Assembly (NCBI RefSeq): GCF_001651855.1
Contig: NZ_LNQC01000049.1
Location: 1-64,000 of the forward strand
Reading direction: 5' to 3'
Length of the DNA: 64,000 nucleotides
Origin: Sinorhizobium americanum
Lineage (GTDB): Bacteria > Pseudomonadota > Alphaproteobacteria > Rhizobiales > Rhizobiaceae
Below, in pieces: positions 27,454-55,268 of the stretch; the stretch's first letter is position 1; each line of letters starts with the position of its first letter. Position numbers and translations under genes: made by a program. Below the pieces are notes generated by a model, which was given only the letters and a program-made list of their open reading frames with translations, was not told the DNA's origin and made no database searches.

Positions 27454-27455
27454 GC

Positions 27456-31053: not shown

Positions 31054-31064
31054 GGCGGTATCTA

Positions 31065-35392: not shown

Positions 35393-35524
35393 GTCGATCC
35401 CTTCGGGTGCGACATCAGCGCATTTGCTCTGGATTTTTCGTTCCTATCCTGATTCGCGCGGTTCCAGAGCGCTTTCGCATTTGCTTATCAGGCGATACTG
35501 TATTTTCCTCGCGGAGGGGCAAGC

Positions 35525-37857: not shown

Positions 37858-38032
37858 AACCCCTCAGCTCAATCATGTGCCATTGCCCAACCGACGGAAG
37901 TGGCAAGTACGAGCAGGTTACCATCAGGTACGGCCAAAATGCCACGATTGCTCCACCGGCAAGTTCTTCGAAGACGGATGTCTCCGCGCCTATAACAGTT
38001 TTCCAACCTCCGAGCCTCTTCCTCTACTGCCT

Positions 38033-39401: not shown

Positions 39402-40433
39402 CTAGGCGAATGCGGACATCGCTGTTAATCGCTCGCGAAAAGAACCGACCGGTCCTCCGTCTCGTCTCCGGCCCGTCCGGGTTTCTTGGGGCGTGCAGCC
39501 CGTGAAAGCCTTGTAAACCTTGGCGAAGTGGGATTGGCTGACGAAGCCCGACGCTATCGCGACATCAATGACGGGAATCGCGGAATTCTCAAGCAGGGCG
39601 TGTGCCCGCTCGATCCGCAGTTGGCGGTAGAATGCACGTGGCTGCATACCAAGATGCTGCTGGAACAACCGCTCGAGACGGCGGCGCGACATGCCAGACG
39701 ACGCGGCAAGCGCGTCCATCGTCAGGGGTTCGGAAACTGTTTTCTCCATGAGTTTTACGGCCGCAAGAAGCGGGGAGCATACTCTTTCAAGGCGCATATG
39801 CAGGGCCATCACTTGGCGGTCTGCTCGGCTTCGCGCCCTTCCTTGCAACGCGACATCGTTGATCGAGTCTACCAGCTCCTGGCCGAAGTCCTGCTTGATG
39901 ATTTCCAACACCAAATCAAACGCTGCGGCCTCCCCGGCACAGGTATGGACGAGGCCGTCGATTTCGTAAAAGGCCCGGGAAAAGACGACTTCCGGGAAGT
40001 TCTCGACGCTGGGCGCGAACACACTCCAGTGAACCGCACAACGACGGCCGTCGAGCAGGCCATGCTCCGCTAGAATCAGCGCCCCTCGACCAACGCCGGC
40101 CACGGAGACGCCCCGCGACATGGCCTCCCTCACCCATGAAACCAAACGAGCTGGAAACACGTCGTCCTTGTCGCCGGGCAGCAATGCCAGAAAGCGGTCC
40201 TGATCGAGCGCCTTGGTATTCCGTGCGCATTCGAGGTCACATTCCGCGGCCAGGCTGATGCCACAGCTCGATTGAACGGGTTCACTGTGGTGACTGACGA
40301 TATTCCAGGAATAGGCCTCGTATCCAAGGACATCATTCGCGATCCGGAGAGGAGCGGTCAACGAAGTGAAGCCCAATAGCGAGAAACCATCCGTGAGGAA
40401 GATGCTGAAATGCCGCCGCAAGATCGAGAGCAT
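39402..40433 (-). CDS. GlxA/GbdR-type AraC regulator of the onium-compound locus
   Basis: 343 residues. The N-terminal DJ-1/PfpI-like domain starts at FSIFLTDGFSLLGFTSLTAP. The C-terminal AraC pair of helix-turn-helices contains LAASSGMSRRRLERLFQQHL and GFVSQSHFAKVYKAFTGCTP. This subclass includes GbdR, CdhR and SouR, which control glycine betaine, carnitine and sarcosine catabolism in Pseudomonas. It follows the aldehyde dehydrogenase gene of the 40-53 kb locus and is likely its activator. Start at MLSILRRHF, since the domain begins there. Confidence 0.88.
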   Translation of the reverse strand: MLSILRRHFSIFLTDGFSLLGFTSLTAPLRIANDVLGYEAYSWNIVSHHSEPVQSSCGISLAAECDLECARNTKALDQDRFLALLPGDKDDVFPARLVSWVREAMSRGVSVAGVGRGALILAEHGLLDGRRCAVHWSVFAPSVENFPEVVFSRAFYEIDGLVHTCAGEAAAFDLVLEIIKQDFGQELVDSINDVALQGRARSRADRQVMALHMRLERVCSPLLAAVKLMEKTVSEPLTMDALAASSGMSRRRLERLFQQHLGMQPRAFYRQLRIERAHALLENSAIPVIDVAIASGFVSQSHFAKVYKAFTGCTPQETRTGRRRDGGPVGSFRERLTAMSAFA

Positions 40434-40484
40434 TTGCGAGACCTCCAGTTTCAGTAGAACAGGCAATTTTGGAAGCCAAAGCCT

Positions 40485-40590
40485 AAAGCGCGTCGCATTC
40501 AAACGACCTCATGCGACGCGCTTTACGTCTTTGTTTTCATGCATGTCGTTGTCCCAAAACCGCTGCACACTTTTGGGCGACATGCATTAA
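40485..40590. repeat. Compound palindromic intergenic repeat
   Basis: Two adjacent inverted repeats. AAAGCGCGTCGCAT (40485-40498) pairs with ATGCGACGCGCTTT (40511-40524). Then TGCATGTCG plus TCCCAAAA pairs with TTTTGGG plus CGACATGCA (about 40539-40588). The first arm is related to the palindrome at 60291-60327. This is typical of highly repeated rhizobial intergenic elements, and it may also end the aldehyde dehydrogenase transcript. Confidence 0.8.
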
Positions 40591-40604
40591 GCAGCAGCGT
40601 CCGT

Positions 40605-42079
40605 TCACTTGATGTACCAGCCCCACCGTTCTTCGCTGACGAAGCGGGTGATCTGCTTGGTCTCGAGATAGTTCTCGAGACCCCAGCGGCCGAGTTCACG
40701 CCCGATCCCGGACTGTTTGTATCCGCCCCATGGCGCTTCCGTGAATGTCGGCTGCGAGCAGTTGATCCAGACGATGCCGGCGCGCAGCGCCGCGGCGACC
40801 CGATCCGCGCGTGCGTCGTCCTTGGACATCACTGCGGCCGCGAGACCGAACTTGCTGTCGTTTGCCAATGCGATGGCTTCGTCTTCGGTCGCGAATGACC
40901 GCAGGCAGACGACCGGGCCGAAGATCTCCTCCTTCCAGGCGTCGCTCTCCGGCGGGACGTCGACCAGCACCGTCGGTTCGACGTAGAAGCCCCTGTTGAA
41001 TCCCGCGGGCCTGCCGCCGCCGACCGCTACGCGAGCGCCGTCGGAGCGAGCCTTGTCGATGGCGGCGAGGACCTGGTCCATCTGGCGTCGAGACACCAAA
41101 GGTCCGAGCAGTACGCCCGGCTCCTGGCCGTCGCCAATCTTGATCTTTCTCGTCTCCTCGACGAGGCGTTTGAGGAACGGTTCGTAGATGTCTTGCTGGA
41201 CCAACACGCGGGACGTCGCCGAGCACACCTCGCCCTGGTTCCAGAATATGCCGAACATCACCCACTCGACGGCGGCGTCGATATCGGAATCGTCGAACAC
41301 GAGGAACGGCGACTTGCCGCCTAGTTCCAGGCTCACGCGCTTGATGTCGCGGGCGGCCGCCTGCATGATCTTGGAGCCGACTGCACCGGAGCCGGTGAAG
41401 GCAAGCTTGTCGACATCGGAATGGTCGACCAGCGCCTGTCCGGCAACCGGTCCGGCTCCGGTGACGATATTGAGTACGCCCGGAGGCAAGTCGGCCGCCT
41501 CAGCGATCACCCCGAGTTCCATCGCCGTCATCGACGTCAGCTCTGCGGGCTTGAGGACCATGGTGCATCCGGCCGCGAGCGCCGGCGCGACCTTCCACGC
41601 GCCATGAGCAATGGGTAGTTCCACGGGATAATGGCTCCGACCACGCCTACTGGCTCCTTGACCGCCTTCGAGGTGAAACGGTCGTCGGCCAGCGTGATTC
41701 GCTCTTCCGGGTTCCGATCGAGTTCCTCGGCAAGGTCGGCATAGAAATCGAAACAACCCGCCGCGTCGCCGATGTCCCATTCCGCTTCGGGGATCGGCTT
41801 GCCGTTGTCGATAGTCTCCATTTGGGCAAGTTCCGAAAGCCTGTTGCGAATGCCCGTTGCGATCGCACGAAGATACCGGGCGCGTTCACCTCCCGACATC
41901 TTCGGCCAGGGGCCATGATCAAACGCCCGACGTGCCGCAAGCACCGCGAGGTCCACATCTTCGGCGGTGCCGGATGGCCCGTGATGAACAATCTCTTCGG
42001 TTGCGGGATTCAAGATCGGGAATGTGCCGCCCTTGACGGGCTTGACCCAGCAACCATCGATAAAGAGTTCGTTTCGCAT
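40605..42079 (-). pseudogene. Betaine-aldehyde-dehydrogenase-like gene with a one-base frameshift
   Basis: Two overlapping frames together give a complete NAD-dependent aldehyde dehydrogenase of about 491 residues. The N-terminal part begins MRNELFIDGCWVKP and runs to IIPWNYPLLMA. Continuation AWKVAPALAAGCTMVLKPAE lies in the next frame. A deletion of one base within GCGCG near 41598-41602 explains the shift. Active-site Glu (SLELGGKSP) and Cys (NQGEVCSATSR) are intact and the end is WGWYIK, as in betaine aldehyde dehydrogenases. It is either a real inactivation or a sequencing error, since the rest shows no decay. ATG preceded by GAAGGA. Confidence 0.85.
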
Positions 42080-42164
42080 TGGCATTCCTTCTATATGGCG
42101 CATCGTTGTTTGGCCGACGCGGAGGGTTCTCGCTTGGTTGAGGGCATTGCTGACGGTCGAACGT

Positions 42165-42776
42165 TCAGCTCGTCGAGGGCTTGGGAACGATCGGAAGAAG
42201 CCAGAGGGCGAGCATCGGTGCCTCTCCCGAGCGCATGCCATGGACTATGCCCGGCGGGCTATGGAAGACGCCGCCGATGCCCGGGTCGAACCATTCGGCT
42301 TCGTCCTGCCGGAACTCTCCGTTCGAGAGAGCGAGGTAGACCTCCTCGGGCGGATGCGAATGGTCGGGATAGCGGACGTTCGGCCGCATGATCGTCAGAC
42401 CGACCCAGACGTCGTGGCGATCCTCCGCACCTCCGGGTCCGATGATCATCCCGGTCGCGTGCCCGTCCATGAAATTGTCCGACGCGTTCGGCCCGCCCTC
42501 TCTTCGCCTCCATCCAAGGTGCGACAGGAGGGGCCGCAGGGTTTTCGCAAGATCGCCAAGCCGCTCGTCCTTGCCTTCGAGTTCCTCGAGCAAGGGGTCG
42601 ACCAAGGCGCAGACGGGAAACATTTCGCGCCGAGATGCGGACAGAGGGCGGCCGGAAGATATCGAGCCGAAGACCTTCGCCAGAGCGGACTTAGTGGCCC
42701 CATCCACCGTTGCGGACGAAAGGGCCGAGCGAGCTGCCTCGACGAAGGCGCTGACAAGCGGCGAACGGTCATGCAT
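42165..42776 (-). CDS. Cupin of the DMSP-lyase family (DddL/DddQ-like)
   Basis: 203 residues. A helical N-terminus (about 1-95) precedes a cupin with YPDHSHPPEEVYLALSNGEF giving the H-x-H-x3-E metal motif (His139, His141, Glu145) plus Tyr147, and a later His179 (PPGIVHGM). This is the pattern of dimethylsulfoniopropionate lyases, which split DMSP into dimethyl sulfide and acrylate. Neighbours are onium-compound genes, so the substrate may be DMSP or another betaine-like compound. Start set at the ATG at 42776, with AGGAGG upstream and an 8-base overlap with the SDR gene. Confidence 0.78.
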   Translation of the reverse strand: MHDRSPLVSAFVEAARSALSSATVDGATKSALAKVFGSISSGRPLSASRREMFPVCALVDPLLEELEGKDERLGDLAKTLRPLLSHLGWRRREGGPNASDNFMDGHATGMIIGPGGAEDRHDVWVGLTIMRPNVRYPDHSHPPEEVYLALSNGEFRQDEAEWFDPGIGGVFHSPPGIVHGMRSGEAPMLALWLLPIVPKPSTS

Positions 42777-43635
42777 GTTCCTGACCTCCTGCATCGTCGC
42801 CAGCGCCGGATTGCTCTCTGAAGTCGGTAATGCGTGTCACTGACTCCCATGCGTCGATCTCTTCGATGACGCGCTCAAGCTTGGCACGTGCCCGAGCCAG
42901 GGCATCGCTACCGAGCAGCAGGTGCAGAGGCGGGTCATCGCTGTCGGCCAGAGCGATGATCGCCATCGCGGCGAGTTCGGGATCGCCAACCTGATGTCCG
43001 TCCGCCGTTTCGAATGCCGCCGCACTGCGGCCGATGGTCTCCGAATAGGCGGCATCCGCAGCCCCGCTTCGCTGGATGGACCTGGGGGAGAGGAAATCGG
43101 TCCGAAATGCTCCGGGAGCGACGGCCGTCACCTTGACGCCGAGCGGGGCGACCTCCAGGGCCAACCCCATCGAAAGACCTTCGAGCGCGGATTTCGCGGC
43201 TGTGTAGATGGCCGTCCCGGTCGTGGGCGCGCGCCCTGCGATCGAAGTAATGTTGATGATGTGTCCGGAGCCTTGTTTGCGGAGATGCGGCAACGCCGTT
43301 TGGATGATACGCAGCGGCGCGAAGAAGTCGACGGCGAAAAGCGCCTGGACCTCCTGGTCGGTGGCGCTCTCCACCGCGCCGAGAAGTCCATGACCGGCGT
43401 TGTTGACGACGACGTCGATCGTGCCGACGAGCTCAAACGCTCTCGTGACACTCGCCTCGGCGGACCCTTGCGCGCCCAGATCGGCCGCGAGGACGTGGAG
43501 CGTGCCGAACTCGTGGTCGAGCGAAAACGACCCGGAACGCGCAGTTCCAACCACGGTATCGCCCCGCGCCAACGCCGCCGTGGCCAACGCCCGGCCGAGG
43601 CCGCGCGATATGCCGGTGATAAACCAGTTCGTCAT
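42769..43635 (-). CDS. Short-chain dehydrogenase/reductase (classical)
   Basis: 288 residues. N-terminal cofactor loop ITGISRGLGRALA, NNAGHG, catalytic Ser in TSIAGR and YTAAK as YxxxK, so the active site is complete. Start at MTNWFITG, preceded by GAGAGGTGGC. It probably oxidises or reduces a hydroxy or keto intermediate of the surrounding catabolic locus; the substrate is unknown. It overlaps the cupin gene and lies 57 bases after the DAO-GcvT gene. Confidence 0.85.
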   Translation of the reverse strand: MTNWFITGISRGLGRALATAALARGDTVVGTARSGSFSLDHEFGTLHVLAADLGAQGSAEASVTRAFELVGTIDVVVNNAGHGLLGAVESATDQEVQALFAVDFFAPLRIIQTALPHLRKQGSGHIINITSIAGRAPTTGTAIYTAAKSALEGLSMGLALEVAPLGVKVTAVAPGAFRTDFLSPRSIQRSGAADAAYSETIGRSAAAFETADGHQVGDPELAAMAIIALADSDDPPLHLLLGSDALARARAKLERVIEEIDAWESVTRITDFREQSGAGDDAGGQEHA

Positions 43636-43692
43636 GCCACCTCTCCTCTCGTGATGTCCGTTCGGGCCGACCGCCTTGAACACAAAGAGAGC

Positions 43693-46140
43693 TTACATCC
43701 TCGTGCGTTCGCCTTTCGGGTCGTACATCGGCTTCAACGAGGCATGAGCCGGGAAGCGTTCACCGGCGATCTCGATCTCGTATTTCGACGCGAGGATGTC
43801 ATCGTCGCTTTCGCCGCGGCAGGGAACATAGCCCATCCCGATCGCGGCCCCCAGATGGTGGCCGTAGTTCCCGGAAGTGATGATGGAGACGATCTTGCCG
43901 TCGCGCACGAGCGCTTCGTTGTGAAACACCAGGGGTTCCGGATCGTGGAGCCTGAACTGAAGCATCCGCCGCTTGAGACCCTCTTCCCGCTTTCTAAGGA
44001 TCGCGTCGCGGCCGGTGAAGTCGACCTTGTCGGTCTTGACCGCGAACCCAAGCCCGGCCTCGAGAACGTGATCCTCGTCCGTGATGTCGTGCCCGAAGTG
44101 CCTGAAAGCCTTTTCGATCCGGCAGGAGTCGAGCGTATGGAGGCCGCACAGTCTAAGGTCGGACGCCGCGCCCGCCTCTTCGAGCGCCTCGAAAACATGC
44201 GCCGCCTGGTCGGACGAGACATAGAGCTCCCATCCCAATTCGCCGACATACGTCACTCGGTGGGCACGGGCGAGCCCCATGCCGATTTCGATCTCCTGCG
44301 CGGTCCCGAACGGAAACGCCTCGTTGGAAAAGTTGTTGGGGCTGACCCGGTTGATCACCTCGCGTGCCTTGGGACCCATCAGGACGAGAACGGATTCCGA
44401 AGCGGTGATATCTGTGATGACGACGAATTCGCCGTCCCGCACGTGCTTGCGCATCCAGGCAAGATCACGCTGCAGCGTCGCGCCCGGAACGACCGCGAAG
44501 AATGCCGTCTCCGAGAGGCGGGTGACGGTGAGATCGCTCTCGATCCCACCTTTCTTGTTGAGCATCTGGGTGTAGACGATCCTGCCAGGCGCGACATCCA
44601 TTTGGTTCGCGCACAGCCGATTGAGAAACGCGCAAGCGTCGCGGCCTTCGACCCTGATCTTTCCGAAAGAGGTCATGTCGAACAGGCCGACGCCGTTTCT
44701 AACGGCGAGGTGTTCCTCCCTCTGGTTCTCGAACCAGTTCTGCCGATTCCAGCTATAGCGGTATTCGCGTTCCTGGCCCGGTTTGGCGAACCAGTTGGCG
44801 CGCTCCCATCCGGCGACTTCGCCGAACACGGCACCACGTGCCTTGAGGTGTTCATGCAGCGGCGAGCGGCGGATGCCGCGCGAGGTCTCGACCTGGCGAT
44901 AGGGGAAATGGTCGGCGTAGAGCAGACCGAGGGTCTCCGTCACCCGCTCCTTGAGGTAAGCGCGGTTCTTCTGGAACGGCTGCGCCCGGCGGATGTCGAC
45001 GTCCCACAGATCGAAGGGCGGCTCGCCGTCATTCATCCATTGCGCTAGCGCGAAGCCCGCGCCGCCGGACGAGACGATGCCGATGGAATTGTAGCCCGCG
45101 GCGATCCAATAGCCTTTCACCTCGGGGGCCTCGCCGAGATAGTAGCGATCGTCGGGGGTGAAGGACTCCGGACCGTTGAAGAACGTGTGAATCCCCGCCG
45201 TTTCCAGCATCGGCATCCGGTTTACGGCCATCGCGAGTATCGGCTCGAAATGGTCGAAGTCCTCGGGGAGCTGGTCGAAACAGAAATCCTCGCGGATCCC
45301 CTCCATGCCCCACGGCTTTGCCCTTGGTTCGAAGGCACCCAGCATCATCTTGCCCGCGTCTTCCTTGTAGTAGGCGCATTCGTCCGGGACGCGCAGAACA
45401 GGGAGGCGGGTGAGGTTTTCGATGGCCTCGGTCACGATGTAGAAGTGCTCGCAGGCATGGAGCGGAAGCGTCACGCCCGATCTCGCGGCCAGATCGCGGC
45501 CCCACATGCCGCCGCAATTGACCACCAAATCGGTTTCGATCGTTCCGGCGTCCTCACCGCTGGCCCATGAAACGCCCGTGACCCTCCCGTCGCGCTTGTG
45601 AACATCGGTGACCTTGACGTTCTCCAGGATTTTCGCGCCAAGCCGCCTTGCCCCCTTTGCGAGTGCCATCGCGATATTCGCCGGGTCGCACTGTCCATCG
45701 AGCGGAAGGTGGACGGCCCCGACGACGTCGGAGATATTGAGATGTGGATACATCTCGTTGACCTCACGAGGAGAGACCTCGTTCACGTCGATGTCGAACG
45801 CCCTCGCGAGAGTCGCCTGCCGATAGATTTCCTGCTTGCGCTCCTCGGTGAGGGCGACGGTAATGGAACCGTTTTGGCGCATGCCGGTTGCGATCCCGGT
45901 CTCGGCTTCGAGCTTCACGTAAAGGTCGGCCGAGTATTTCGCGAGCCGGGTCATGTTCTGCGACGCGCGCAACTGCCCGATCAGGCCAGCGGCATGCCAA
46001 GTCGTGCCGGATGTCAGTTGCTTCCTTTCGAGCAGAACGATGTCGGTCCATCCGAGCTTCGCCAGGTGGTAGGCGACGGAGCATCCGGAAATTCCTCCGC
46101 CGATGACAACAACTCGAGCTTTCGTTGGCAAATTGGGCAT
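43693..46140 (-). CDS. DAO-GcvT fusion: dimethylglycine/sarcosine-dehydrogenase-like demethylase
   Basis: 815 residues. The N-terminal FAD oxidase domain (VVVIGGGISGCSVAYHLAKL, about 10-30) has TTWHAAGL, whose His usually carries covalent FAD. The C-terminal aminomethyltransferase (GcvT) domain, about 430-800, captures the released one-carbon unit on tetrahydrofolate. Such fusions oxidatively demethylate dimethylglycine, sarcosine or related N-methyl compounds. It lies directly downstream of a betaine-type ABC transporter, fitting uptake then demethylation. Start at MPNLPTKARVVVIGG; a longer frame is not needed. Confidence 0.9.
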   Translation of the reverse strand: MPNLPTKARVVVIGGGISGCSVAYHLAKLGWTDIVLLERKQLTSGTTWHAAGLIGQLRASQNMTRLAKYSADLYVKLEAETGIATGMRQNGSITVALTEERKQEIYRQATLARAFDIDVNEVSPREVNEMYPHLNISDVVGAVHLPLDGQCDPANIAMALAKGARRLGAKILENVKVTDVHKRDGRVTGVSWASGEDAGTIETDLVVNCGGMWGRDLAARSGVTLPLHACEHFYIVTEAIENLTRLPVLRVPDECAYYKEDAGKMMLGAFEPRAKPWGMEGIREDFCFDQLPEDFDHFEPILAMAVNRMPMLETAGIHTFFNGPESFTPDDRYYLGEAPEVKGYWIAAGYNSIGIVSSGGAGFALAQWMNDGEPPFDLWDVDIRRAQPFQKNRAYLKERVTETLGLLYADHFPYRQVETSRGIRRSPLHEHLKARGAVFGEVAGWERANWFAKPGQEREYRYSWNRQNWFENQREEHLAVRNGVGLFDMTSFGKIRVEGRDACAFLNRLCANQMDVAPGRIVYTQMLNKKGGIESDLTVTRLSETAFFAVVPGATLQRDLAWMRKHVRDGEFVVITDITASESVLVLMGPKAREVINRVSPNNFSNEAFPFGTAQEIEIGMGLARAHRVTYVGELGWELYVSSDQAAHVFEALEEAGAASDLRLCGLHTLDSCRIEKAFRHFGHDITDEDHVLEAGLGFAVKTDKVDFTGRDAILRKREEGLKRRMLQFRLHDPEPLVFHNEALVRDGKIVSIITSGNYGHHLGAAIGMGYVPCRGESDDDILASKYEIEIAGERFPAHASLKPMYDPKGERTRM

Positions 46141-46281
46141 GCGCGTCTTCTTTCGCAGTTTGGGTCGGCCCTGACAGGCCAACAGGTCGTTAATGAATTT
46201 GCCCGGGCGGCGGGCGCAGTTCCCCAATCCGCTCAGTCGGCGGCGCGGAGAGCCCGATTGCGGTCTTACGTTTGCGGCCCG

Positions 46282-47130
46282 CTATCCCAGTCTTCGGCGA
46301 CGGCTCTGAAGCGCGCCCTTCGAAACCCGGTCCAGGAGGATGGCGACCGCGACGATCGACAGCCCGGCCCGAAGGCCGAGGCCCATCTCCATTCGCGTCA
46401 GCCCCCGCGTGACCTCCGCACCCAGGCCTCCGCCGCCGACGAGGCCGGCCAGGACGACCATGGCGAGGGACAGCAGGATGCACTGGTTCAAGCCTACGAT
46501 GAGCGTCGGCATCGCCGAAGGAATTTCGATCTTGAACAGGATCGACCGTGTCGGTGCGCCGATCGCCTGTCCCATCTCGACCAGGGGCTTGGGCACCTGG
46601 TTGAAAGCCAACGTGGTGAGCCGCAGCATGGGCGGAATGCCGTAGACAATGGTGGCGATGGTCGCGGGGACGCGTCCGAGGCTGAAGACCATGACCGCGG
46701 GGATCAGGTAGACCCAAGGCGGGACGGTCTGCATCACGTCCAGGATGGGCCGAAGCCCCGCTTCAAGTCTTTTATGTCGCGAGGCGAGAACCCCGAGGGG
46801 AAACGCGATCAGGACGGAGACAAAAACCGCGACGACGACGAGAGCGACCGTCTGCATGCACGCCGTCCAGAGACCTGCCAGCAGGCAGAAGCCGAGCGAC
46901 ACCAACACCACCAGCGCAACGCGAACCGTGGTGAAATAGGCGGCGGCCAAGACTGCCACGGTTATCACGACATAGGCGGGCGGGTAGAGCAGCGCCGACT
47001 CGAAGGCGACAAGAACGGACTCGACCGCCTTGGAGACAGCGTCGAAGAACGGATGAAAGTTCGCGTTGAGCCAGTCGACCGCCGGCGCCAGATATGCGCC
47101 CGGGGAAAAAAGCAACAGTTCGAAGTTCAT
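46282..47130 (-). CDS. ABC transporter permease 2, glycine-betaine/proline type
   Basis: 282 residues with about six to seven membrane segments and the EAA loop (EMGQAIGAPTRSILFKIEIP). It belongs to the ProW/OpuAB family and is the second of two adjacent permease genes, overlapping the first by 4 bases, so the channel is probably a heterodimer rather than the usual ProW homodimer. About 140 bases without a gene separate it from the DAO-GcvT gene. Confidence 0.9.
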   Translation of the reverse strand: MNFELLLFSPGAYLAPAVDWLNANFHPFFDAVSKAVESVLVAFESALLYPPAYVVITVAVLAAAYFTTVRVALVVLVSLGFCLLAGLWTACMQTVALVVVAVFVSVLIAFPLGVLASRHKRLEAGLRPILDVMQTVPPWVYLIPAVMVFSLGRVPATIATIVYGIPPMLRLTTLAFNQVPKPLVEMGQAIGAPTRSILFKIEIPSAMPTLIVGLNQCILLSLAMVVLAGLVGGGGLGAEVTRGLTRMEMGLGLRAGLSIVAVAILLDRVSKGALQSRRRRLG

Positions 47131-47975
47131 CTTGCACCTGCCTTGACGCGGCGGGCCGCATTCTGGGTCAGTCGATCCAGGATCATCGTCAGGATGACGA
47201 TCGCGATCGCGGCGTTGATGGATGTGGCGATATCAAGCGTTCGTACCGCTCCGTAGATCGTTTCGCCAAGACCGCCGGAGCCGACGATGCCCGCGATAAC
47301 CACCATGCCGAAGGACATCATCAGACTTTGATTGATGCCCGCCATGACACTCGGGATAGCGAACGGAAGCCTGATCTTCGTGAACATCTGCCCGGGTGTG
47401 AGGCCGCTCGCATGGCCGAGTTCGATGAACTCGTGCGGCGTCATCCGGATGCCGAGCGAGGTCAGGCGGATCGCGGGTGGCATCGCCACGACGACCGTGG
47501 CGATCAATGCCGTTGCCGGGCCATAGCCCAGAAGCGCGATTGCTGGCAGGAGGTAGATGTATGGCGGAAGCGTCTGGATAAGGTCCAGAACGGGTTCGAG
47601 TGCTTTGTTCAGGGTGGCCAGGAATCCCGCCGCGATACCGATTGGAATGGCGACCGCGAGCGCCAGAACTGTGGCGGTGGCCACCAGTGCGAGCGTGCTC
47701 ATGGTTTCAGCCCATAAACCCATGATGGCGCAGAATGCGAGCGCGACGCCCGTCAAGATCGCGGAAACGAGACCCATCAGCCTCCAGGTAAGCAACGCCA
47801 CGATGAGGGTGACGACATAGAACGGCGCGAACTGGAGGAGCCAGAGGATGCCGTCGTAGGTGCCCTCAAGTATTCCCCGCAAAAAGTCGAAAGCCCACTC
47901 GCCGTTGTCGCTGATCCAGGCAAGCCCGTCATCGACCCATATGTCGAAAGTGTCGGTGAGGACTGAGGTGTCCAT
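47127..47975 (-). CDS. ABC transporter permease 1, glycine-betaine/proline type
   Basis: 282 residues, same family as its neighbour, with an N-terminal periplasmic-facing stretch (about 1-35) before the membrane segments and EAA loop IELGHASGLTPGQMFTKIRL. It lies 12 bases after the ATPase gene. Substrates of relatives are glycine betaine, proline betaine, choline or DMSP. Confidence 0.9.
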   Translation of the reverse strand: MDTSVLTDTFDIWVDDGLAWISDNGEWAFDFLRGILEGTYDGILWLLQFAPFYVVTLIVALLTWRLMGLVSAILTGVALAFCAIMGLWAETMSTLALVATATVLALAVAIPIGIAAGFLATLNKALEPVLDLIQTLPPYIYLLPAIALLGYGPATALIATVVVAMPPAIRLTSLGIRMTPHEFIELGHASGLTPGQMFTKIRLPFAIPSVMAGINQSLMMSFGMVVIAGIVGSGGLGETIYGAVRTLDIATSINAAIAIVILTMILDRLTQNAARRVKAGAR

Positions 47976-47987
47976 TGAGCCCTCCTA

Positions 47988-49076
47988 TCAAGCCGCCGCG
48001 CGAGCTTCAGCGGGACTGCCCGCGACGCCGCGAAGCAGACCTCTGGCGGTGACCACGCCGACGACCTTGCCGTCGTGCACGACCGCTACGGCATCGCGAT
48101 CCGATTGCATCGTCAGATCGATAAGCTCTCCGATGTCGGCATCCGGCGTTGTCCTGAGCAGGGCGTCGACATCGCAGTTGGGATGCGCGGCCCTGAACTC
48201 GGCGACTGGCTTCATCACGGAATGCGCCTTCACCAGATGGATTCGCGAAATACCCGCGACGAAGTCGGCGACATAGTCGTCCGCCGGCCTGGTGACGATC
48301 TCCTCGGCGGTACCGACCTGAACGATGACACCGTCCTTCATGATGGCGATCCGATCGCCGATACGGATGGCCTCGTCGAGGTCATGGGTAATGAACACCG
48401 ACGACTTGCCCAACGATTTCGTCAGTTGCCGGAACTCGTCCTGGAGCTGTCGGCGGATAAGCGGATCGAGAGCGCTGAACGGCTCGTCCATCAGGATGAT
48501 CTCTGGGTCAGCGGCGAGCGCCCGGGCGAGCCCGACGCGCTGTTGCATGCCGCCCGACAGTTCGGAAGGGTACCTTGCGGTCCAGTCGGACAAGCCGACC
48601 TTTCCCAGGGCGGCAAGCGCGATCTCGTTGCGTTGCTCCCTGGCGATACCGCGCACTTCAAGCCCGAAAGCAGCATTCTCGAGCACCGTTCTGTACGGCA
48701 AGAGCGCGACGCTCTGGAATACCATGCCGATGGTGTTGGCACGCATCTCGCGCAGTTCCGCAGGTTTCAGGGCCGAGATTTCCCGCCCTTTCACCGTGAT
48801 GGTGCCAAGGCTCGGTTCGATCAGGCGGTTGAAGAGACGGACAAGCGTGGACTTGCCGCTGCCGGACAGGCCCATCACGCAGAAGATTTCCCCTCGGCGT
48901 AACTGCAGGCTGGCGTCCGCGACGCCGACCACACAGTCGAAGTCCTGGAGGACTTGCTTCTTCGACAGGCCACGCTCGGAGACCGCCTTCACCGCTGCGG
49001 GAGCGCGTGCCCCGAATATCTTCCAGACGTTCCGGCAGTCGAGCAGCACGTCGTTGTCATTGATTTTCTTTTCCAT
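47988..49076 (-). CDS. ABC transporter ATPase, glycine-betaine type (ProV/OpuAA family)
   Basis: 362 residues with Walker A GLSGSGKST, signature LSGGMQQRVGLARAL and Walker B ILMDEPFSALDP. A C-terminal CBS-like region (DADIGELIDLTMQSDRDAVA, then HDGKVVGVVTARG) is used by OpuA relatives to sense ionic strength. Start at MEKKINDNDVLLDCRNVWK, the family N-terminus. Transcribed after the binding-protein gene with a hairpin between them. Confidence 0.92.
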   Translation of the reverse strand: MEKKINDNDVLLDCRNVWKIFGARAPAAVKAVSERGLSKKQVLQDFDCVVGVADASLQLRRGEIFCVMGLSGSGKSTLVRLFNRLIEPSLGTITVKGREISALKPAELREMRANTIGMVFQSVALLPYRTVLENAAFGLEVRGIAREQRNEIALAALGKVGLSDWTARYPSELSGGMQQRVGLARALAADPEIILMDEPFSALDPLIRRQLQDEFRQLTKSLGKSSVFITHDLDEAIRIGDRIAIMKDGVIVQVGTAEEIVTRPADDYVADFVAGISRIHLVKAHSVMKPVAEFRAAHPNCDVDALLRTTPDADIGELIDLTMQSDRDAVAVVHDGKVVGVVTARGLLRGVAGSPAEARAAA

Positions 49077-49120
49077 GACATTCCCCAGAGCCAGTCTACG
49101 ACCGGTCATTATTGGCGGAG

Positions 49121-49150
49121 GGCGAGCCGTCGACGCCGCCGCGGCTCGCC
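49121..49150 (-). terminator. Intercistronic hairpin between binding-protein and ATPase genes
   Basis: GGCGAGCCG (49121-49129) pairs with CGGCTCGCC (49142-49150) across a 12-base GC-rich loop. There is no U-run, so message stabilisation or partial attenuation is likelier than termination. Same position as the hairpin after pstS. Confidence 0.5.
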
Positions 49151-49158
49151 TGCTTCGA

Positions 49159-50010
49159 TCATTCTCCCTTGATGTTTTCCCAACGCTTCAGGAGATCCGC
49201 ATGATTGTCGGTCCAGTCCTTGATCGCTTCGTCCATGGTCTTACCGTCGGCGACCGCACCGTTGATGGCGGTTATGTCAGCAAGCGGAACATAGACGCTC
49301 GAGATGATCTCGCGAGCTCGGGGATTTTCCTCGGAAAAGCCCTTGGTCCCGATCCAGTAGTAGGTCTGCGCCGCGGGGAAGATGTTCTTCGAGTCCTTGA
49401 GGAACTTCAGCGGATACTTCTGCATCATCCAGGAAGGTTCCCAGATCGTCACCGCGATCCATTCCTTCCGTTCGACTGCCGATTTCAGGGCGGCCGTCAT
49501 TGCGGCGGTGCTGCCCTCGACGGTCTGAAGCTTGAGATCGTATTCCTTGGAGGCGGTGGCCATGTCGCGCATAAGACCGGAACCCGGCTCGACGCCGATG
49601 ATCTTGTTGCCGAACTTGTCGGCGTTCTCGTTCAACTGCTCCATCGTGTCGATGTTCACGTAGTTCGGAACGGCGACAGCCTGATAGAGGCCATGCGAAA
49701 CCGGCGAGATTTTCTCGAGACGCCGCTTGTTCTTGTCCCAGTAGTCGTAGGTCACGTAGTTCACGTGCGATGTCAGGATTTGAATGTCGCCCTTGCCGAG
49801 CGCTGCGAACGCGATGCCCCATTCGGAGAACGGGACGACCTTGACCGTGTAGCCCTGGTCTTCGAGGACTTTCTTCGTGATACCCGTGATGGGCATCAGA
49901 TCCTCCCAGGACAAGGTTCCCATCGTAATGGTCTTCTCCTCCGCGTGGGCGGACAGGAACGTCATGCCCACCATCGCCGCCGCGACCAGTGCTTTCAACA
50001 ATGCCTTCAT
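49159..50010 (-). CDS. Periplasmic binding protein of a glycine-betaine-type ABC transporter
   Basis: 283 residues, OpuAC/ProX family. Signal peptide MKALLKALVAAAMVGMTFLS with cleavage after AHA (near residue 23). Aromatic residues suited to a cation-pi cage for quaternary ammonium appear in TLSWEDL, VTIWEPSWMMQKYP and TYYWIG. Which onium compound it binds cannot be told by eye. First transporter gene of the locus. Confidence 0.92.
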   Translation of the reverse strand: MKALLKALVAAAMVGMTFLSAHAEEKTITMGTLSWEDLMPITGITKKVLEDQGYTVKVVPFSEWGIAFAALGKGDIQILTSHVNYVTYDYWDKNKRRLEKISPVSHGLYQAVAVPNYVNIDTMEQLNENADKFGNKIIGVEPGSGLMRDMATASKEYDLKLQTVEGSTAAMTAALKSAVERKEWIAVTIWEPSWMMQKYPLKFLKDSKNIFPAAQTYYWIGTKGFSEENPRAREIISSVYVPLADITAINGAVADGKTMDEAIKDWTDNHADLLKRWENIKGE

Positions 50011-50171
50011 TTCACTCACTCCTCCGTATTGTTCCCACTCCATCGGAGACCCGTTACGGGCTCCTCATTGCGCGGCGAGTCATCAAGTCTCGTGGCGTGC
50101 ACGCAATTCCGTCCTCCCGACCTCTCGGTCGAACCGGAGCCCGCGCCCCTCGGCGCTCGCTCTCCGGGCAT

Positions 50172-50885
50172 TCACATGTGTCTCGTCAGTCCGCCATCCA
50201 CACGCAGGTTCTGACCGGTGATGTAGCCCGCGTCCTCGGAAAGCATGAACGCAGCCGTCTTGGCGATCTCGGCGACGGTACCGATCCGGCGAAGCGGGAT
50301 CGGATCGGCCGCCTCGGCTGGATGCGCCATACTGGCGATGTAACCGGGAAGAAGCGCGTTCATGCGGATGTTCCGGGGACCGTACTTGTCCGAGTACATC
50401 TTGGTGTAGGCGGCCACGGCCGCCCGGTAGGCGCACGAGATGGGATAGTTCGCGTCCGGTTCGAAGGTGGCGAGCGTCGTGATGTTGAGGAACGCTCCGC
50501 CTCCCTGGTCGAGCATGAGAGGGGTCACGAGCTTCGCCATCCGTTGGACCGAGAGCAGGATCGAACGGTTACCGTCTTCCCAGACCGCGTCGTCGATCTC
50601 GAGCAGATCGCCCGTCGGCGGATGAGCGGTGTTGTTGACGACAGCGTCGATCCGGCCATAGGCCGAGCGGGCGAGTGCAACCAATGCCTCGAGATCGGCC
50701 AGACTGTCAGTGGAGCCGCGCATCCCCTTGCCGCCAAGTTCGACAGCAAGCGCTTCCGAACTGCCCGAAGGCGACATGAGAACCAGGCGGTAGCCGGCAC
50801 GATGGAGTTCGCGGGCGATGGCCGCTCCCATTTCGCGGCCGCCTCCCGTTATGATCGCGACTGGTTTCGAGGTTTCCAAGTTCAC
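50172..50885 (-). CDS. Atypical short-chain dehydrogenase/reductase
   Basis: 237 residues. Cofactor loop ITGGGREMGAAIA and NNTAHPP are present, and the end (YITGQNLRVDGGLTRHM) is typical. The catalytic region reads YPISCAYRAAVAAYTKM, where the usual Y-x3-K is replaced by a form in which Arg takes the Lys place; a subgroup of SDRs shares this AYRAA pattern. It may use a different catalytic Tyr. Part of the onium-compound locus. Confidence 0.8.
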   Translation of the reverse strand: MNLETSKPVAIITGGGREMGAAIARELHRAGYRLVLMSPSGSSEALAVELGGKGMRGSTDSLADLEALVALARSAYGRIDAVVNNTAHPPTGDLLEIDDAVWEDGNRSILLSVQRMAKLVTPLMLDQGGGAFLNITTLATFEPDANYPISCAYRAAVAAYTKMYSDKYGPRNIRMNALLPGYIASMAHPAEAADPIPLRRIGTVAEIAKTAAFMLSEDAGYITGQNLRVDGGLTRHM

Positions 50886-50924
50886 GAGCGGAGCTCCAGT
50901 TCGAAAGAGTTGGTGTTTGGCGAT

Positions 50925-51809
50925 CTAGCGCGTTGAACCGTCGAGCAAGGGCGCGAGGGCCTCCTGAAGCGCCCTGTCCTGTTCTGCCTTCAGTTTCGCG
51001 AGGGGCTTGCGGACATTGCCCGTTCCGTAGCCGCGGAGCTGGGCTGCCCGCACGACGGACGGCGTGTAATGCGTTCTCCAGATGAAGAGGAGAGAGGGAA
51101 GCATCCGCTTCCAAAGCTCCAGGGCTTCCGCGTATTTGCCAGCGGAAACGAGGTCGTAGAGACGGACCGCCTCGTGAGGCATGTAGTTCGCCCCGCCCCA
51201 GATCACGCCCTTCGTACCCGCCATCAATGCGTAGACCGTGGTCGTGTCGCAGCCGTTCAGAACCGACGCCGATGTCGACAGATACTCCTGATGGACGGTG
51301 AGGTCGCCAGCGCTATCCTTGATCCAGTTGAAATTCCTGAGCGTCGTGAGGCGTTGCAGGAGTTCGACCGAGACCGAAATGCCCGTGTTCTGCGGAATGT
51401 TGTATCCGATGATGTCGATGCCGATCGCGGCATCGATTTCCTTGTAGAAGGCGAACAGGCCGTCGTCGTCGCCCGGACCCTCGAAATAGGGCGGAAGGAT
51501 CATGAGTGCATCAGCGCCGATCGATTCCGCATGCCGGGAGCGTCGGATCACCTCGTCCATATTCAACGCGGACGTCTGGCAGATGACGTTGCAGCGGCTG
51601 CCTATGCGCTTGGCACCTATCTCGTAGAGCTTGTTGCACTCGTCCTCGGTGAGGTAGGGATGCTGTCCGGTGCCGGCACCGAGCACCAGTCCGTGAACCC
51701 CCGCATCAACATACTTGTCGATCAGTTCCTCGAAAATCTGGAAGTTCACCGTCCCGTCGTCGTTGAACGGGGTTTGCATCGCGAGATTGATGCCCTTGAG
51801 ATCAGCCAT
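50925..51809 (-). CDS. Dihydrodipicolinate-synthase-family lyase/hydrolase
   Basis: 294 residues, (beta/alpha)8 barrel of the DapA/NAL family. Schiff-base Lys in WIKDSAGDL and Tyr in IIGYNIPQNTG are present; LVLGAGTGQHPYLTEDE replaces the GTTGE loop of true DapA, so this is a catabolic member such as a keto-acid aldolase or a deaminating dehydratase. Start at MADLKGINLAM; 17 bases separate it from the FAD oxidoreductase gene. Relatives in hydroxyproline catabolism (pyrroline-hydroxycarboxylate deaminase) are one model for its role. Confidence 0.85.
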   Translation of the reverse strand: MADLKGINLAMQTPFNDDGTVNFQIFEELIDKYVDAGVHGLVLGAGTGQHPYLTEDECNKLYEIGAKRIGSRCNVICQTSALNMDEVIRRSRHAESIGADALMILPPYFEGPGDDDGLFAFYKEIDAAIGIDIIGYNIPQNTGISVSVELLQRLTTLRNFNWIKDSAGDLTVHQEYLSTSASVLNGCDTTTVYALMAGTKGVIWGGANYMPHEAVRLYDLVSAGKYAEALELWKRMLPSLLFIWRTHYTPSVVRAAQLRGYGTGNVRKPLAKLKAEQDRALQEALAPLLDGSTR

Positions 51810-51826
51810 TCTTGTAGTCCCTTTCG

Positions 51827-53182
51827 CTAAACTTCCTTGCCAGCCTGTTTGAAGCGCCATCCCGTGACGAACCGGACGCCCGTCGATGTGATGAGCTTCG
51901 GATAGGCGCGTGAAGGCGCGACGCGCCGCTTGAGGATTTCGATGATGGGCGACGATCGGCCCACGGCGAGTTCGGCGACGGATTTGCCGAAGGATGTCCC
52001 TCTCGAAACCCCTGTGCCGTTGCAGAATGCCGCGCCGAAGACGTTGTCCGCGAGTTCGCCGAAGACCATGCCGCCGTTCTGCGCGAGCGTCAGCAGGCCG
52101 CCCCAGCTCGCCACGAATCCCATCGACGAAAGCTCCGGCCATCGGCGGTCGAACGCGACCTGCTGTTGCATCTTCGCGCTTTCGACATCCTTGAACGTGG
52201 TCTTGAAATCGGCCGCGTAGGAGTAGACGTTCCGCAGAATGAGGCGGTTGTCGTTTGTGCGCCGGACAGTCGTGCCGAAGCTGTTGGCCGGGATCAGCCC
52301 GTAGCCTCCACGATCGCCGACCTTGGCCAGCTCCGCGGTCGTCAGCTCGCGGGTCATGCTGGCAAAGGTATAGAGCGGGATCGCGCTGTTCGGATAGAAA
52401 CCAAACTCGGTGAGGTAGCCCGCCGCGCAGATGATGACCTTGCTGGCCGTGATCACGCCCGTCGGCGTCTGGAACGTGTGGAACGGCTTGCCGTAGTCGG
52501 CTCCGGTGATCGCCGTATACTCGTAGACTGTGACGTTCTTCGGCAGAGCGCGCGCGGCGTTCTTCAGATATTTCGCCGGGTGGATCAGGATCGTCCCGGG
52601 GTGGTGCAGCGCCCGGATGTAGTGCCTGCTTCCGGTCAGCGCCTGAATCTCATCCTTTTCGACCCAGCGGTAGCTCTGTCCCATCTTGTCGAGGGCGTGG
52701 GAGAAATTGACGAGGTCGGCCACGCCGTGCTCGGTCGCGGCGCTATGGTATTTGCCCTGCGGGTCCCAGTCGCAATCCACCCCGAGTTCCTCGACGGAGG
52801 AACGCAGGTAGGCGTTGCCGTCCAGGTTGACTTCGAGCTCCTCGCGATTGCCCTTGATGTCTTCCACGAAATCCTGCTTGCGCGGATTGTGCGCTAGGTC
52901 GATCGCGAAACCCATGCAGCGGCCGGACGCGTTGTTGCCAATGCGCCCCGCATCGACCAGAACGACCGTCGCGTCCGGACGAAGCTCGGCGTAGCGGCGG
53001 GCGGCATGCAAACCCATCCATCCCGCGCCTATCACCAGGCACTCGCAGTTCGTCTGACCGCTTTGGGAGAGCAGCGGGAGGTCTGGCCCCGATGTCATAT
53101 ACCAGCCCGACACCGTCGGTTCATCGTGTGGTCGGGGCACGGAAACATGCTCCCGCGGCGCGTTTCGATGTGTCGGAGCCAC
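51827..53182 (-). CDS. FAD-dependent oxidoreductase (DadA/glycine-oxidase-like)
   Basis: 451 residues. The dinucleotide fold (CLVIGAGWMGLHAARRYAEL) begins near residue 46, after an N-terminal stretch with SGWYMTSGPDLPLL that is conserved in this subgroup and supports the longer start. The C-terminal glycine-rich FAD segment is FCNGTGVSRGTSFGK. Relatives oxidise secondary or tertiary amines and D-amino acids. First gene of the leftward locus, divergent from the LysR gene. Confidence 0.87.
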   Translation of the reverse strand: MAPTHRNAPREHVSVPRPHDEPTVSGWYMTSGPDLPLLSQSGQTNCECLVIGAGWMGLHAARRYAELRPDATVVLVDAGRIGNNASGRCMGFAIDLAHNPRKQDFVEDIKGNREELEVNLDGNAYLRSSVEELGVDCDWDPQGKYHSAATEHGVADLVNFSHALDKMGQSYRWVEKDEIQALTGSRHYIRALHHPGTILIHPAKYLKNAARALPKNVTVYEYTAITGADYGKPFHTFQTPTGVITASKVIICAAGYLTEFGFYPNSAIPLYTFASMTRELTTAELAKVGDRGGYGLIPANSFGTTVRRTNDNRLILRNVYSYAADFKTTFKDVESAKMQQQVAFDRRWPELSSMGFVASWGGLLTLAQNGGMVFGELADNVFGAAFCNGTGVSRGTSFGKSVAELAVGRSSPIIEILKRRVAPSRAYPKLITSTGVRFVTGWRFKQAGKEV

Positions 53183-53315
53183 GTTGTTCTCTCTCGGTTC
53201 TGGTAAATTTCGCGGGGCCTCCCGAGCATCCCGCCGTTAAAGTCTGTCGCGAGCTAAACATACAAAAGACACTCTCTGTAGACGGAAAAGATGTCACCTG
53301 ATATGAATCCCATTC

Positions 53316-54221
53316 ATGTCAAAGCTCCGCTCCCTGCTGCCGTCGCCGCATTCCTTGTTCGTCTTCGAAGCAGCTGCCCGAAACCTGAATTTCGCAGCGG
53401 CTTCAAAGGAGTTGAACGTCACACAGCCAAGCGTTTCCCATTCGATAAAGGCTCTGGAGAAGCATTGCGGCACCGCCCTATTCGTAAGGGAGAACAGGGG
53501 CGTGCAGCTCACCGAGGCCGGGCGGGTGCTTTACGACGGCGTGCGGGCGAGCTTTACCAGGATGGAGGACAGCTTCAGGGCGATCTCCCCCGAAGCCACC
53601 CAATACCTGACGCTGGCGGCATCCACGTCAGTGGCCGCACATTGGCTTATGCCCAAGCTCTACCAGCTCCAGCACGACCACCCGAACCTGAAGATCAAGG
53701 TCGTCACCACCGACCGGGACGTGGAGCCTGACTCCGAAATCGACATGACGATCTGGATTCGGGATCGGGGATTTCAGCGGCAAAACACGTGGTTCGTTTG
53801 CGACGAGGTAGTGTTCCCGGTGTGCTCGCCTGCCTACCTTGCCGAACGCCCTCGCATAAGAACCGTCGCGGACCTGCCTGACCACCAGTTGCTCCACTCC
53901 TTCGACGCCCACCGCAAGCGGATCGGCTGGGAGGAATGGTTCGACCTCGTGGGAGCCGGATCGGTGCAAGCACCGCCCAAAATGGTGTTGAACGACTATC
54001 AGCTTGTTATGCAGGGAGCACTCTCGGGTGAGGGTATTGCTCTCGGATGGAATTTTTCAGCTCAGCTGTTGCTTCGGAACAAGCTCCTCGTGAAGCCACT
54101 GGACGTTTCCGTGCGGACGGGAGGAGCGTTTTTCCTGGTCGCCAACCAACGAAGAGCCGAACAGGAGAACCTCGACATTCTTGTTGCGTGGTTGCTCTCG
54201 CAGACTAGGGACCTACGCTGA
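53316..54221 (+). CDS. LysR-family regulator (GcvA-like), divergent from the catabolic locus
   Basis: 301 residues. N-terminal helix-turn-helix FAAASKELNVTQPSVSHSIK, then the effector domain with ADLPDHQLLHSF and GIALGW. The 133-base space to the FAD oxidoreductase gene should hold shared operators, the usual LysR arrangement. A second regulator (GlxA-type) lies at the far end of the locus, so two signals may be needed. Confidence 0.92.
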   Translation: MSKLRSLLPSPHSLFVFEAAARNLNFAAASKELNVTQPSVSHSIKALEKHCGTALFVRENRGVQLTEAGRVLYDGVRASFTRMEDSFRAISPEATQYLTLAASTSVAAHWLMPKLYQLQHDHPNLKIKVVTTDRDVEPDSEIDMTIWIRDRGFQRQNTWFVCDEVVFPVCSPAYLAERPRIRTVADLPDHQLLHSFDAHRKRIGWEEWFDLVGAGSVQAPPKMVLNDYQLVMQGALSGEGIALGWNFSAQLLLRNKLLVKPLDVSVRTGGAFFLVANQRRAEQENLDILVAWLLSQTRDLR

Positions 54222-54821
54222 AACGGCATTCGCCGAGTGGAACGCGGCCCTCGCTTTGACGCTCTCAGGTCTAGTCGTCTTTTACCTGATCGGTTTCTGC
54301 CATAACAGGCTGGTGAAGCTAGGGCTCATCCATTGTGGCTGAGCTTCGTGGTCAGCACACTCGACATTGTGCTGCATTTTGCCTGATCGTCGGCACGAAT
54401 CCTTTGGCGAAGCCGAGATGCCGCAGGCTATGCAACTGCGCGAGGGCTCCTTCACCTCTCTCCTGATCTTCGTTTGCCTCGCCGCGCTGACGCTGTCGCC
54501 GCTCTTTGGCGCTCTGGGTTGGCGTTTCCGCGGCCGTCTCGTGGAGTGTGGCGGTCGCCTGGGTGATCGCGCAGCCGGGGACGCTCACCGCGGCCGACTG
54601 ACGACGACGTCGTGAGGGCGTTGCGCTGCACGCAGTTGATGGGCGCTCCGGTACGGCAATGGTCAGCCCGACAGGGCACACGAGTTCGCTTCGCCACTTC
54701 CGCGACACATGTCGTTACAAACGTCGAGTCGGGCAGACACATCGTCGATACACACAGGCGCTCAAATGGCGGCATTGGCTTCGAAAACGAAGCTCGACCC
54801 AATAGGCGAAAGGACGATGAT
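54222..54821. other. Intergenic, possible degraded membrane-protein fragments
   Basis: 600 bases with no intact gene. Short hydrophobic frames occur (for example ALALTLSGLVVFYLIGF ending with a stop at 54340, and SLLIFVCLAALTLSPLFGAL near 54450-54510), which hint at remains of a membrane protein. Not enough is left to name it. Confidence 0.45.
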
Positions 54822-55223: not shown

Positions 55224-55268
55224 GCGATTGACATGGATACTGAGAACCACCTGGAAGGAAGTGCGAAG

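Follow-up and report, generated by a model that had tools for sequence, protein, structure and literature searches.

Which compound is taken up and broken down by the genes that lie between positions 39,402 and 54,221 of a 64,000-nucleotide stretch of Sinorhizobium americanum DNA (hereafter the window)? The list of open reading frames (ORFs) and Pfam/NCBIfam profile searches place twelve genes on the minus strand and one divergent LysR gene on the plus strand of this region. A preliminary description of the locus had all genes running in one direction between two regulators, which holds for the twelve minus-strand genes but not for LysR; the protein families it named are borne out by the ORFs and the profile assignments. 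In transcription order the minus strand carries a flavin adenine dinucleotide (FAD) enzyme, a DHDPS-family enzyme, the short-chain dehydrogenase/reductase (SDR) called SDR2, a four-gene OpuA-type transporter, a DAO-GcvT fusion, a second SDR (SDR1), a cupin, an aldehyde dehydrogenase (ALDH) resembling betaine aldehyde dehydrogenase (BADH) and a GlxA-type AraC regulator, and the short intergenic gaps (-26 to +161 nt) make operons plausible. Our answer is a tentative one, to which we give somewhat short of an even chance: the cluster may be an accessory catabolic island for N-methyl-4-hydroxyproline, or for hydroxyproline betaine after a first demethylation elsewhere, that works by a retro-aldol route. 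That the substrate would be hydroxyproline-like and N-methylated is held with moderate confidence, and the route would apparently be unlike the known hydroxyproline pathway. The catabolic and transport genes on which this answer depends are as follows.

51827..53182, minus strand: FAD amine oxidase/dehydrogenase of the DAO family (PF01266), proposed to oxidise the ring C-N bond
50925..51809, minus strand: DHDPS-family Schiff-base lyase (PF00701), the proposed retro-aldolase
49159..50010, minus strand: OpuAC-type substrate-binding protein (PF04069; TIGR03414 below cut-off; OpuAC alignment)
47988..49109, minus strand: ABC transporter ATPase of the proV family (TIGR01186 above cut-off)
47127..47975, minus strand: ABC permease 1 (assigned not by profile scan but by its 32% identity to permease 2 and by orthologues that carry a betaine/proline permease annotation)
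46282..47130, minus strand: ABC permease 2 (TIGR03416 and ProW matches below cut-off)
43693..46140, minus strand: DAO-FAO_M-GcvT fusion, sarcosine-dehydrogenase-like (DAO, FAO_M, GCV_T, GCV_T_C), the proposed N-demethylase giving methylene-tetrahydrofolate
40605..42079, minus strand: ALDH10/BADH-like aldehyde dehydrogenase (ALDH family profile), frame broken near 41,600, with an intact orthologue in L057

Is this set of genes more than an accident of one contig? When the gene order was sought in other genomes, as the preliminary description had it in mind, it was found to recur in L001 (a metagenome-assembled genome, MAG), L057 (S. americanum CCGM7) and L097 with the accessory genes varying, and because of this recurrence the set is not a product of chance. 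The region 39402-54221 also matches plasmid C of S. americanum CFNEI 73 (NZ_CP013110.1) at 100.0% over its full length, with one single-base length difference in the C run at 45651-45655 inside the DAO-GcvT gene, where the window frame is open.

In what company are such transporters found? All parts of an OpuA-type importer are present in the window (OpuAC, two permeases and the proV ATPase). A scan of named genomes with the binding protein gave 56 loci, mostly in rhizobia, and 51 of the 56 have a hydroxyproline-type DHDPS gene in the same stretch, which makes a hydroxyproline-type betaine, already listed among the early candidates, the best substrate class. It may be noted that "hydroxyproline-type" is a label given by context and family in a comparison with no characterised enzyme. 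This DHDPS gene is usually accompanied by a GntR regulator, an aldehyde dehydrogenase, an FAD oxidase and a proline-racemase-family gene. The annotated set is present in Rhizobium etli CIAT 652 and Rhizobium sp. BT03, where the racemase-family gene is named "4-hydroxyproline epimerase", and also, without the epimerase in the stretch examined, in Agrobacterium LN-1. The hydroxyproline-type loci match the trans-4-hydroxyproline degradation gene set in PMC4113996. The trans-4-hydroxy-L-proline pathway given there (4HypE, c4Hyp oxidase, DHDPS-family deaminase and KGSA dehydrogenase) is like the window in its DAO oxidase, DHDPS-family enzyme and aldehyde dehydrogenase, and its rhizobial versions share an orthologous transporter with the window. 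The window's own genome (G000) also carries a hydroxyproline-type operon, at G000:C64. By sequence comparison the window locus is a second, diverged paralogue of this operon, and its transporter is orthologous to that of the hydroxyproline-type operons.

How far, then, have the enzymes moved away? The window FAD enzyme is 30-38% identical to the copies in L059, L060, L072 and L073 as against 78-94% to those in L001, L057 and L068, and for the DHDPS-family enzyme the corresponding values are 25-28% and 80-93%. The L057 copy of the ALDH is 38-42% identical to the L059, L060, L072 and L073 copies. Thus the oxidase, the DHDPS-family enzyme and the ALDH fall outside the hydroxyproline-type sequence groups, with 74-94% identity among the window-type copies. 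Adding L057, L059, L060, L061, L068, L069 (the pSymA plasmid of S. meliloti AK57), L074 and L097 to the 56 binding-protein loci gives 64 loci, of which 55 have the hydroxyproline-type DHDPS; with it are found the matching oxidase (50 of the 55), the matching aldehyde dehydrogenase (54) and a racemase-family gene (47). Genes for DAO-GcvT, the ALDH10-like enzyme and SDR2 (at least 55% identity) are found in none of these 55 hydroxyproline-type loci, but all three occur in 5 of the 7 window-type loci, defined as those with a window-type oxidase or lyase. The two others, L013 (Mesorhizobium) and L046 (Pseudaminobacter), belong to the 55 as well. In the sequences compared, the divergence of the oxidase is linked with that of the lyase, the aldehyde dehydrogenase and the binding protein. 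Compared with the trans-4-hydroxy-L-proline pathway, the window enzymes are only 25-42% identical to those of the hydroxyproline-type operons, the ALDH is ALDH10-like, and the cluster adds a sarcosine dehydrogenase (SarDH)-like enzyme and an atypical SDR and has no racemase-family gene.

Does the binding protein say what is bound? A motif S[HQ][VI]NY is present in 5 window-type proteins (the window, L001, L057, L097 and one in L013), while Asp replaces its Asn in the other 58 of the 63 binding proteins counted, the motif of AK57 being unreadable. We take this Asn/Asp position to be near the expected ligand pocket. In the OpuAC alignment two of the three positions that we assume to be cage Trp residues are kept in 63 of 63 proteins, and the third is His, Gln or once Leu. 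This would fit a ligand that is carboxylated and cationic, carries an extra polar group and differs from hydroxyproline at the nitrogen. The same data bear on glycine betaine, choline or carnitine catabolism, which we regard as very unlikely. Such a role would account for an OpuA-type transporter, a BADH-like ALDH and a dehydrogenase of the dimethylglycine/sarcosine type, but there is no choline dehydrogenase or betaine methyltransferase among the window ORFs identified, the binding protein and permease 2 do not reach the cut-offs of the choline and ProX/ProW profiles, another residue stands in place of one OpuAC cage Trp, the oxidase and lyase would be left without a role there, and the related loci are hydroxyproline-type. 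The carnitine-like candidates of the preliminary description, and glycine betaine with them, find no support in the neighbourhoods examined.

Could the difference lie in the stereochemistry of the substrate and not at its nitrogen? The oxidase-lyase pair may serve another hydroxyproline isomer (e.g. cis-4-hydroxy-L-proline or 3-hydroxyproline) or hydroxypipecolate, with the demethylase acting on its methylated form. Parallel oxidase-lyase pairs in L013 and L046 would agree with this: only LysR, the FAD enzyme and the DHDPS-family enzyme (in L013 a binding protein too) stand there, directly before a hydroxyproline-type operon. So would a proline-racemase-like gene, diverged in sequence, that L057, L097 and L069 possess. 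In L057 its two usual Cys residues are replaced by Ser and Ala, and the hydroxyproline-operon copy in L060 is also without the second Cys; in the window no tblastn match was found with either racemase-like query, and six PF05544 genes are present elsewhere in its genome. We nevertheless consider this explanation unlikely, as the loss of Asp from the binding protein and the linkage of SarDH-like and ALDH10-like genes speak for a nitrogen substituent instead of stereochemistry.

What would the enzymes do with an N-methylated hydroxyproline? Families, gene order, transporter orthology and linked divergence are read from the sequence, and from these we infer the substrate, all the reactions, their order and the role of LysR as regulator. 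The OpuA-type transporter would import N-methylated 4-hydroxyproline, the FAD enzyme would oxidise its ring C-N bond, and the iminium would open to 2-oxo-4-hydroxy-5-(methylamino)pentanoate. The DHDPS-family enzyme would split this by retro-aldol cleavage into pyruvate and methylaminoacetaldehyde, which the ALDH10-like enzyme would oxidise to sarcosine, and the sarcosine-dehydrogenase-like fusion would turn sarcosine into glycine and methylene-tetrahydrofolate. 4-Hydroxy-2-oxo acids are classic substrates of Schiff-base aldolases, and an ALDH10-type enzyme suits the route because methylaminoacetaldehyde is an aminoaldehyde. We favour this retro-aldol route, in which the oxidase, the lyase, the aldehyde dehydrogenase and the demethylase would each depart from the hydroxyproline pathway in a way that the route can use. 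The functions that the preliminary description foresaw for a catabolic locus (uptake, oxidation, cleavage by a lyase and demethylation to tetrahydrofolate) fit; its step order is changed, since demethylation was placed there before oxidation and cleavage and is here preferred as the last step. Plants make methylated prolines, and work on hydroxyproline betaines would gain a specific pathway whose substrate and products are named. N-methyl-hydroxyproline is reported from peanut (PMC10780471), and stachydrine use helps S. meliloti in root colonisation and nodulation (PMC12239276).

The predicted model of the FAD enzyme (mean pLDDT 75.2) is closest to glycine and sarcosine oxidases. In the lyase the Schiff-base Lys161 and Tyr133 are invariant (alignment A1 of 7 sequences; a further alignment, A2, held 18), and the Arg of the Y-N-x-P-x-R motif that is kept in the hydroxyproline-operon enzymes is absent. 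An attempt to name the lyase reaction from solved relatives failed, DapA-type entries being among the top matches. The lyase is 42% identical to a third DHDPS group; an FAD-DHDPS pair of this third type (again 42% against the window lyase) is present in R. etli CIAT 652 at L070:11971-14222, together with a transporter of the C4-dicarboxylate type and a Zn-alcohol dehydrogenase. For the intact ALDH orthologue (L057:13370-14860) the closest PDB entries are named aminoaldehyde and chloroplastic betaine aldehyde dehydrogenase, and its aromatic positions are Tyr/Trp/Trp against Phe/Trp/Phe in the hydroxyproline-operon ALDH. By its solved relatives and these positions the L057 enzyme would count as an ALDH10 aminoaldehyde dehydrogenase, where both the ALDH10 label and the meaning of the aromatic residues are our assumption.

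Is the DAO-GcvT fusion a sarcosine dehydrogenase? It has the DAO, FAO_M, GCV_T and GCV_T_C domains in this order, so that the domains named in the preliminary description stand, although it seems nearer to a presumptive sarcosine dehydrogenase than to the DMGDH-like pair member. It is 84% identical to G000:C44:86634-89066 in its own genome, and an 82-84% relative is found in 32 of 33 Sinorhizobium genomes, the single one without it being 70%-complete and having 95% and 88% copies. A second DAO-GcvT protein accompanies this genus-wide relative, or one of 88-89% identity, in L096, L098, L101 and L102, and in L096 an MTTB gene is next to the pair. Against solved DMGDH the pair partner of the own-genome L096 scores 577 bits and the window enzyme 471, with no solved sarcosine dehydrogenase of this type among the matches. 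We presume the pair to consist of a DMGDH and a sarcosine dehydrogenase and the window enzyme to resemble the latter; a motif basis for this assignment is also presumed by us. A tree of 15 rows, drawn without L089 and the paired-protein rows, unites the window with L001, L057 and L097 (100/100); a wider group that also takes in the copies of L068, L098 and L101 (100/100) is separate from the genus-wide copies. The pair beside MTTB, presumed to serve glycine betaine/sarcosine demethylation, thus has one member about 84% identical to the window enzyme, but the window has a single copy within a hydroxyproline-like cluster and no MTTB or second DAO-GcvT gene.

Might demethylation nevertheless come first? 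The DAO-GcvT enzyme would then make hydroxyproline, and the FAD enzyme, a DHDPS-family deaminase and the aldehyde dehydrogenase would lead to alpha-ketoglutarate as in the known pathway. That DAO-GcvT enzymes demethylate N-methyl amino acids is established, the island is paralogous to hydroxyproline-type operons, an ALDH10-like paralogue is present in another DHDPS/racemase-family locus, and the superfamilies are shared with the known pathway (PMC4113996). But a second, diverged pair would be redundant in the own genome, which possesses a complete hydroxyproline-type operon, and in L013 and L046, where the two kinds of oxidase-lyase pair are neighbours; and the ALDH is 38-42% identical to the hydroxyproline-operon enzymes and closest to plant aminoaldehyde-type enzymes. 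We hold this order of steps to be doubtful, though it deserves real weight.

Several findings also weigh against the retro-aldol reading of an N-methyl-4-hydroxyproline island that we prefer. The ALDH frame of the window is broken: the family named by the preliminary description stands, but the gene runs in two frames, 42241-41537 and 41780-40605, with the break near 41,600. CFNEI 73 is identical at the break and L001, L057, L097 and L099 (an island remnant in G777) are open there; the gene may have died in this lineage, or else the window and CFNEI 73 records have an error or a source in common. Because of this break a 78% ALDH10-like paralogue in the own genome (G000:C49:199786-201273) would have to take over its role, or else the island is undergoing decay in the window strain. 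Among the neighbours of that paralogue are genes of the racemase family, one for a DAO protein and a DHDPS gene with 39% identity to the hydroxyproline type, and since the paralogue sits in such a DHDPS/racemase-family locus the ALDH10-like type is no proof of an aminoaldehyde route. The DHDPS profile fits solved DapA proteins best and does not separate aldolase from deaminase. L013 and L046 hold the oxidase-lyase pair without SarDH or ALDH10 nearby, the hydroxyproline-type locus L054 has a nearby 47% DAO-GcvT relative (below the 55% threshold), and L068 has a different, ProX-like binding protein. Also the 84% identity to the genus-wide DAO-GcvT enzyme may reflect recruitment for another N-methyl amino acid. 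No Rieske demethylase or enolase-superfamily betaine epimerase gene is found among the window ORFs scanned, and SDR1, SDR2 and the cupin would get no step in the proposed route.

Has such a gene set been described before? A pathway for 4-hydroxyproline betaine (Hpb) was reportedly described by Zhao in 2013 and Kumar in 2014, to whom PMC4113996 refers. It is like the window in its betaine-type uptake, N-demethylation, oxidase, DHDPS-family enzyme and aldehyde dehydrogenase, but the window cluster is without the enolase-superfamily epimerase and the Rieske demethylase; AK57 has an enolase-superfamily fragment and a nearby Rieske protein. The stachydrine (proline betaine) locus with stcD shares a PF16867 cupin and a betaine-type ABC transporter with the window, many stcD stretches having etfBA as well, but StcD is lacking in the window cluster. 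In searches of an open-licence library, which lacks two key hydroxyproline-betaine papers, we recognised no description of the present set.

The remaining genes of the island and the promoter block are the following.

53316..54221, plus strand: divergent LysR-type regulator (PF00126+PF03466), 85% identical in L057 and 94% in L001
53276..53317, plus strand: conserved promoter block, made up of CTGTAGACGGAAAAGA (53276-53291) and a dyad, ATGAATCCCATTCAT (53303-53317), that overlaps with the start codon of LysR
50172..50885, minus strand: SDR2, an atypical SDR (PF13561/PF00106)
42769..43683, minus strand: SDR1, a classical SDR, accessory (PF00106)
42165..42794, minus strand: cupin of the PF16867 "DMSP lyase" family, accessory (PF16867 E=3e-51)
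39402..40502, minus strand: GlxA-type AraC regulator (PF12833+PF01965), also in L001, L057, L097 and L099

Does the cupin make the substrate dimethylsulfoniopropionate (DMSP)? For DMSP catabolism, with the cupin as DMSP lyase, there is the PF16867 match and the conserved metal-motif residues: the DddQ-type metal motif, the residue roles of which we assume, is kept. But the cupin is optional. It is 74-75% identical in L001 and L099 and has no tblastn match in the island stretches L057, L097, L068 and L069. Cupins of this group, 40-49% identical to that of the window, are directly beside stcD in 19 of the 19 Sinorhizobium stretches fetched, which argues against DMSP; this candidate of the preliminary description is dropped, and we find DMSP catabolism scarcely credible here. 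Cupin matches were obtained in 22 of 33 Sinorhizobium genomes (11 without a match), and 5 of the 28 matches, at 31-51% identity, lie outside the fetched set. On three annotated plasmids (S. meliloti ABS7, R. leguminosarum 248 and Phyllobacterium T1018) cupins are likewise beside or near a stcD-type gene. Among L110, L111, L112 and L113-L131 several PF16867 cupins are annotated "dimethylsulfoniopropionate lyase". This suggests that some rhizobial "DMSP lyase" proteins may belong to proline-betaine metabolism, and the link is a warning that surveys of the sulfur cycle may be misled by such labels in rhizobial genomes.

In a tblastn comparison of seven island loci the cupin and the racemase-like gene were never found together, with the cupin in the window, L001 and L099, the racemase-like gene in L057, L097 and L069, and neither in L068. 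A combined proposal would have N-methyl-4-hydroxyproline opened by retro-aldol cleavage to pyruvate and a sarcosine precursor and would have the cupin act on proline-type betaines as a metal-dependent alpha-proton enzyme (an epimerase or E1cB lyase); this we judge improbable, but if true, the stcD-linked rhizobial cupins gain a function. In L001 the cupin and SDR1 form one open frame of 510 codons, possibly from a MAG assembly error. L001, L057 and L099 carry SDR1, of which L097 retains no more than a remnant. In all 6 window-type copies of SDR2 that were aligned, the usual catalytic Tyr and Lys are replaced by Ser and Arg. Adjoining the CCGM7 island (L057:28049-31006) there is a further LysR-SDR-FAD oxidase set, the SDR of which is 49% identical to SDR2 and has Ser/Arg at the catalytic Tyr/Lys positions.

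What might control the island? A GTAGACG-NN-AAAGA core is found upstream of LysR in 7 of the 7 window-type loci compared (the window, L001, L013, L046, L057, L068 and L097; L069 was left out). The dyad has one match in the window and none in 100 shuffles, and is imperfect in L013, L046 and L068. The promoter block is likely a LysR operator, and LysR would be the regulator of the island.

How widely is the island distributed? Close relatives of the window DHDPS-family protein (E <= 1e-90) are found in 2 of 394 genomes of the family, the own genome included, and in 1 of 397 of the order, which is the own one, both sets being even samples. A search of 33 Sinorhizobium genomes with DAO-GcvT showed the whole island in G000 and G787 and the remnant in G777 (L099); G794:C87 is presumably the same MAG as L001. 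Of 73 plasmid records with E <= 1e-60, the 4 above 60% identity are CFNEI 73, CCGM7, Agrobacterium 1D1609 (from an alfalfa gall) and S. meliloti AK57 pSymA. The island is plasmid-borne in these four and on a 6.1-Mb contig in G787. It is a real, rare and accessory element.

The related clusters carry more genes than the window. That of Agrobacterium 1D1609 adds a Rieske pair, fdhA, etfBA, folD and purU, and the AK57 version adds etfBA, purU, a folD fragment, a Rieske protein and an enolase-superfamily protein, so that with the Rieske, etfBA, folD and purU genes they carry what a first betaine demethylation and one-carbon disposal need. No Rieske, fdhA, etfBA, folD or purU gene is present among the ORFs identified in the window cluster. 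It may be noted that the AK57 record is noisy with many broken frames, and its genes were compared piecewise. The AK57 enolase-superfamily fragment was considered as the known hydroxyproline-betaine epimerase, but this found no support, its best PDB matches being other MR_MLE proteins. On AK57 pSymA (L069/L081/L082) a larger related island has a Rieske protein, two enolase-superfamily proteins, a racemase-like protein, etfBA, purU and further DHDPS genes. Around the island of the window itself, the adjoining stretch 26000-38000 has a lower G+C (0.55-0.57) and few long ORFs, with a cyclase-domain/TPR protein at 35525-37300, and on the other side, outside the island, a small cupin followed by an epoxide hydrolase-like gene is found at 54612-56588 on the plus strand.

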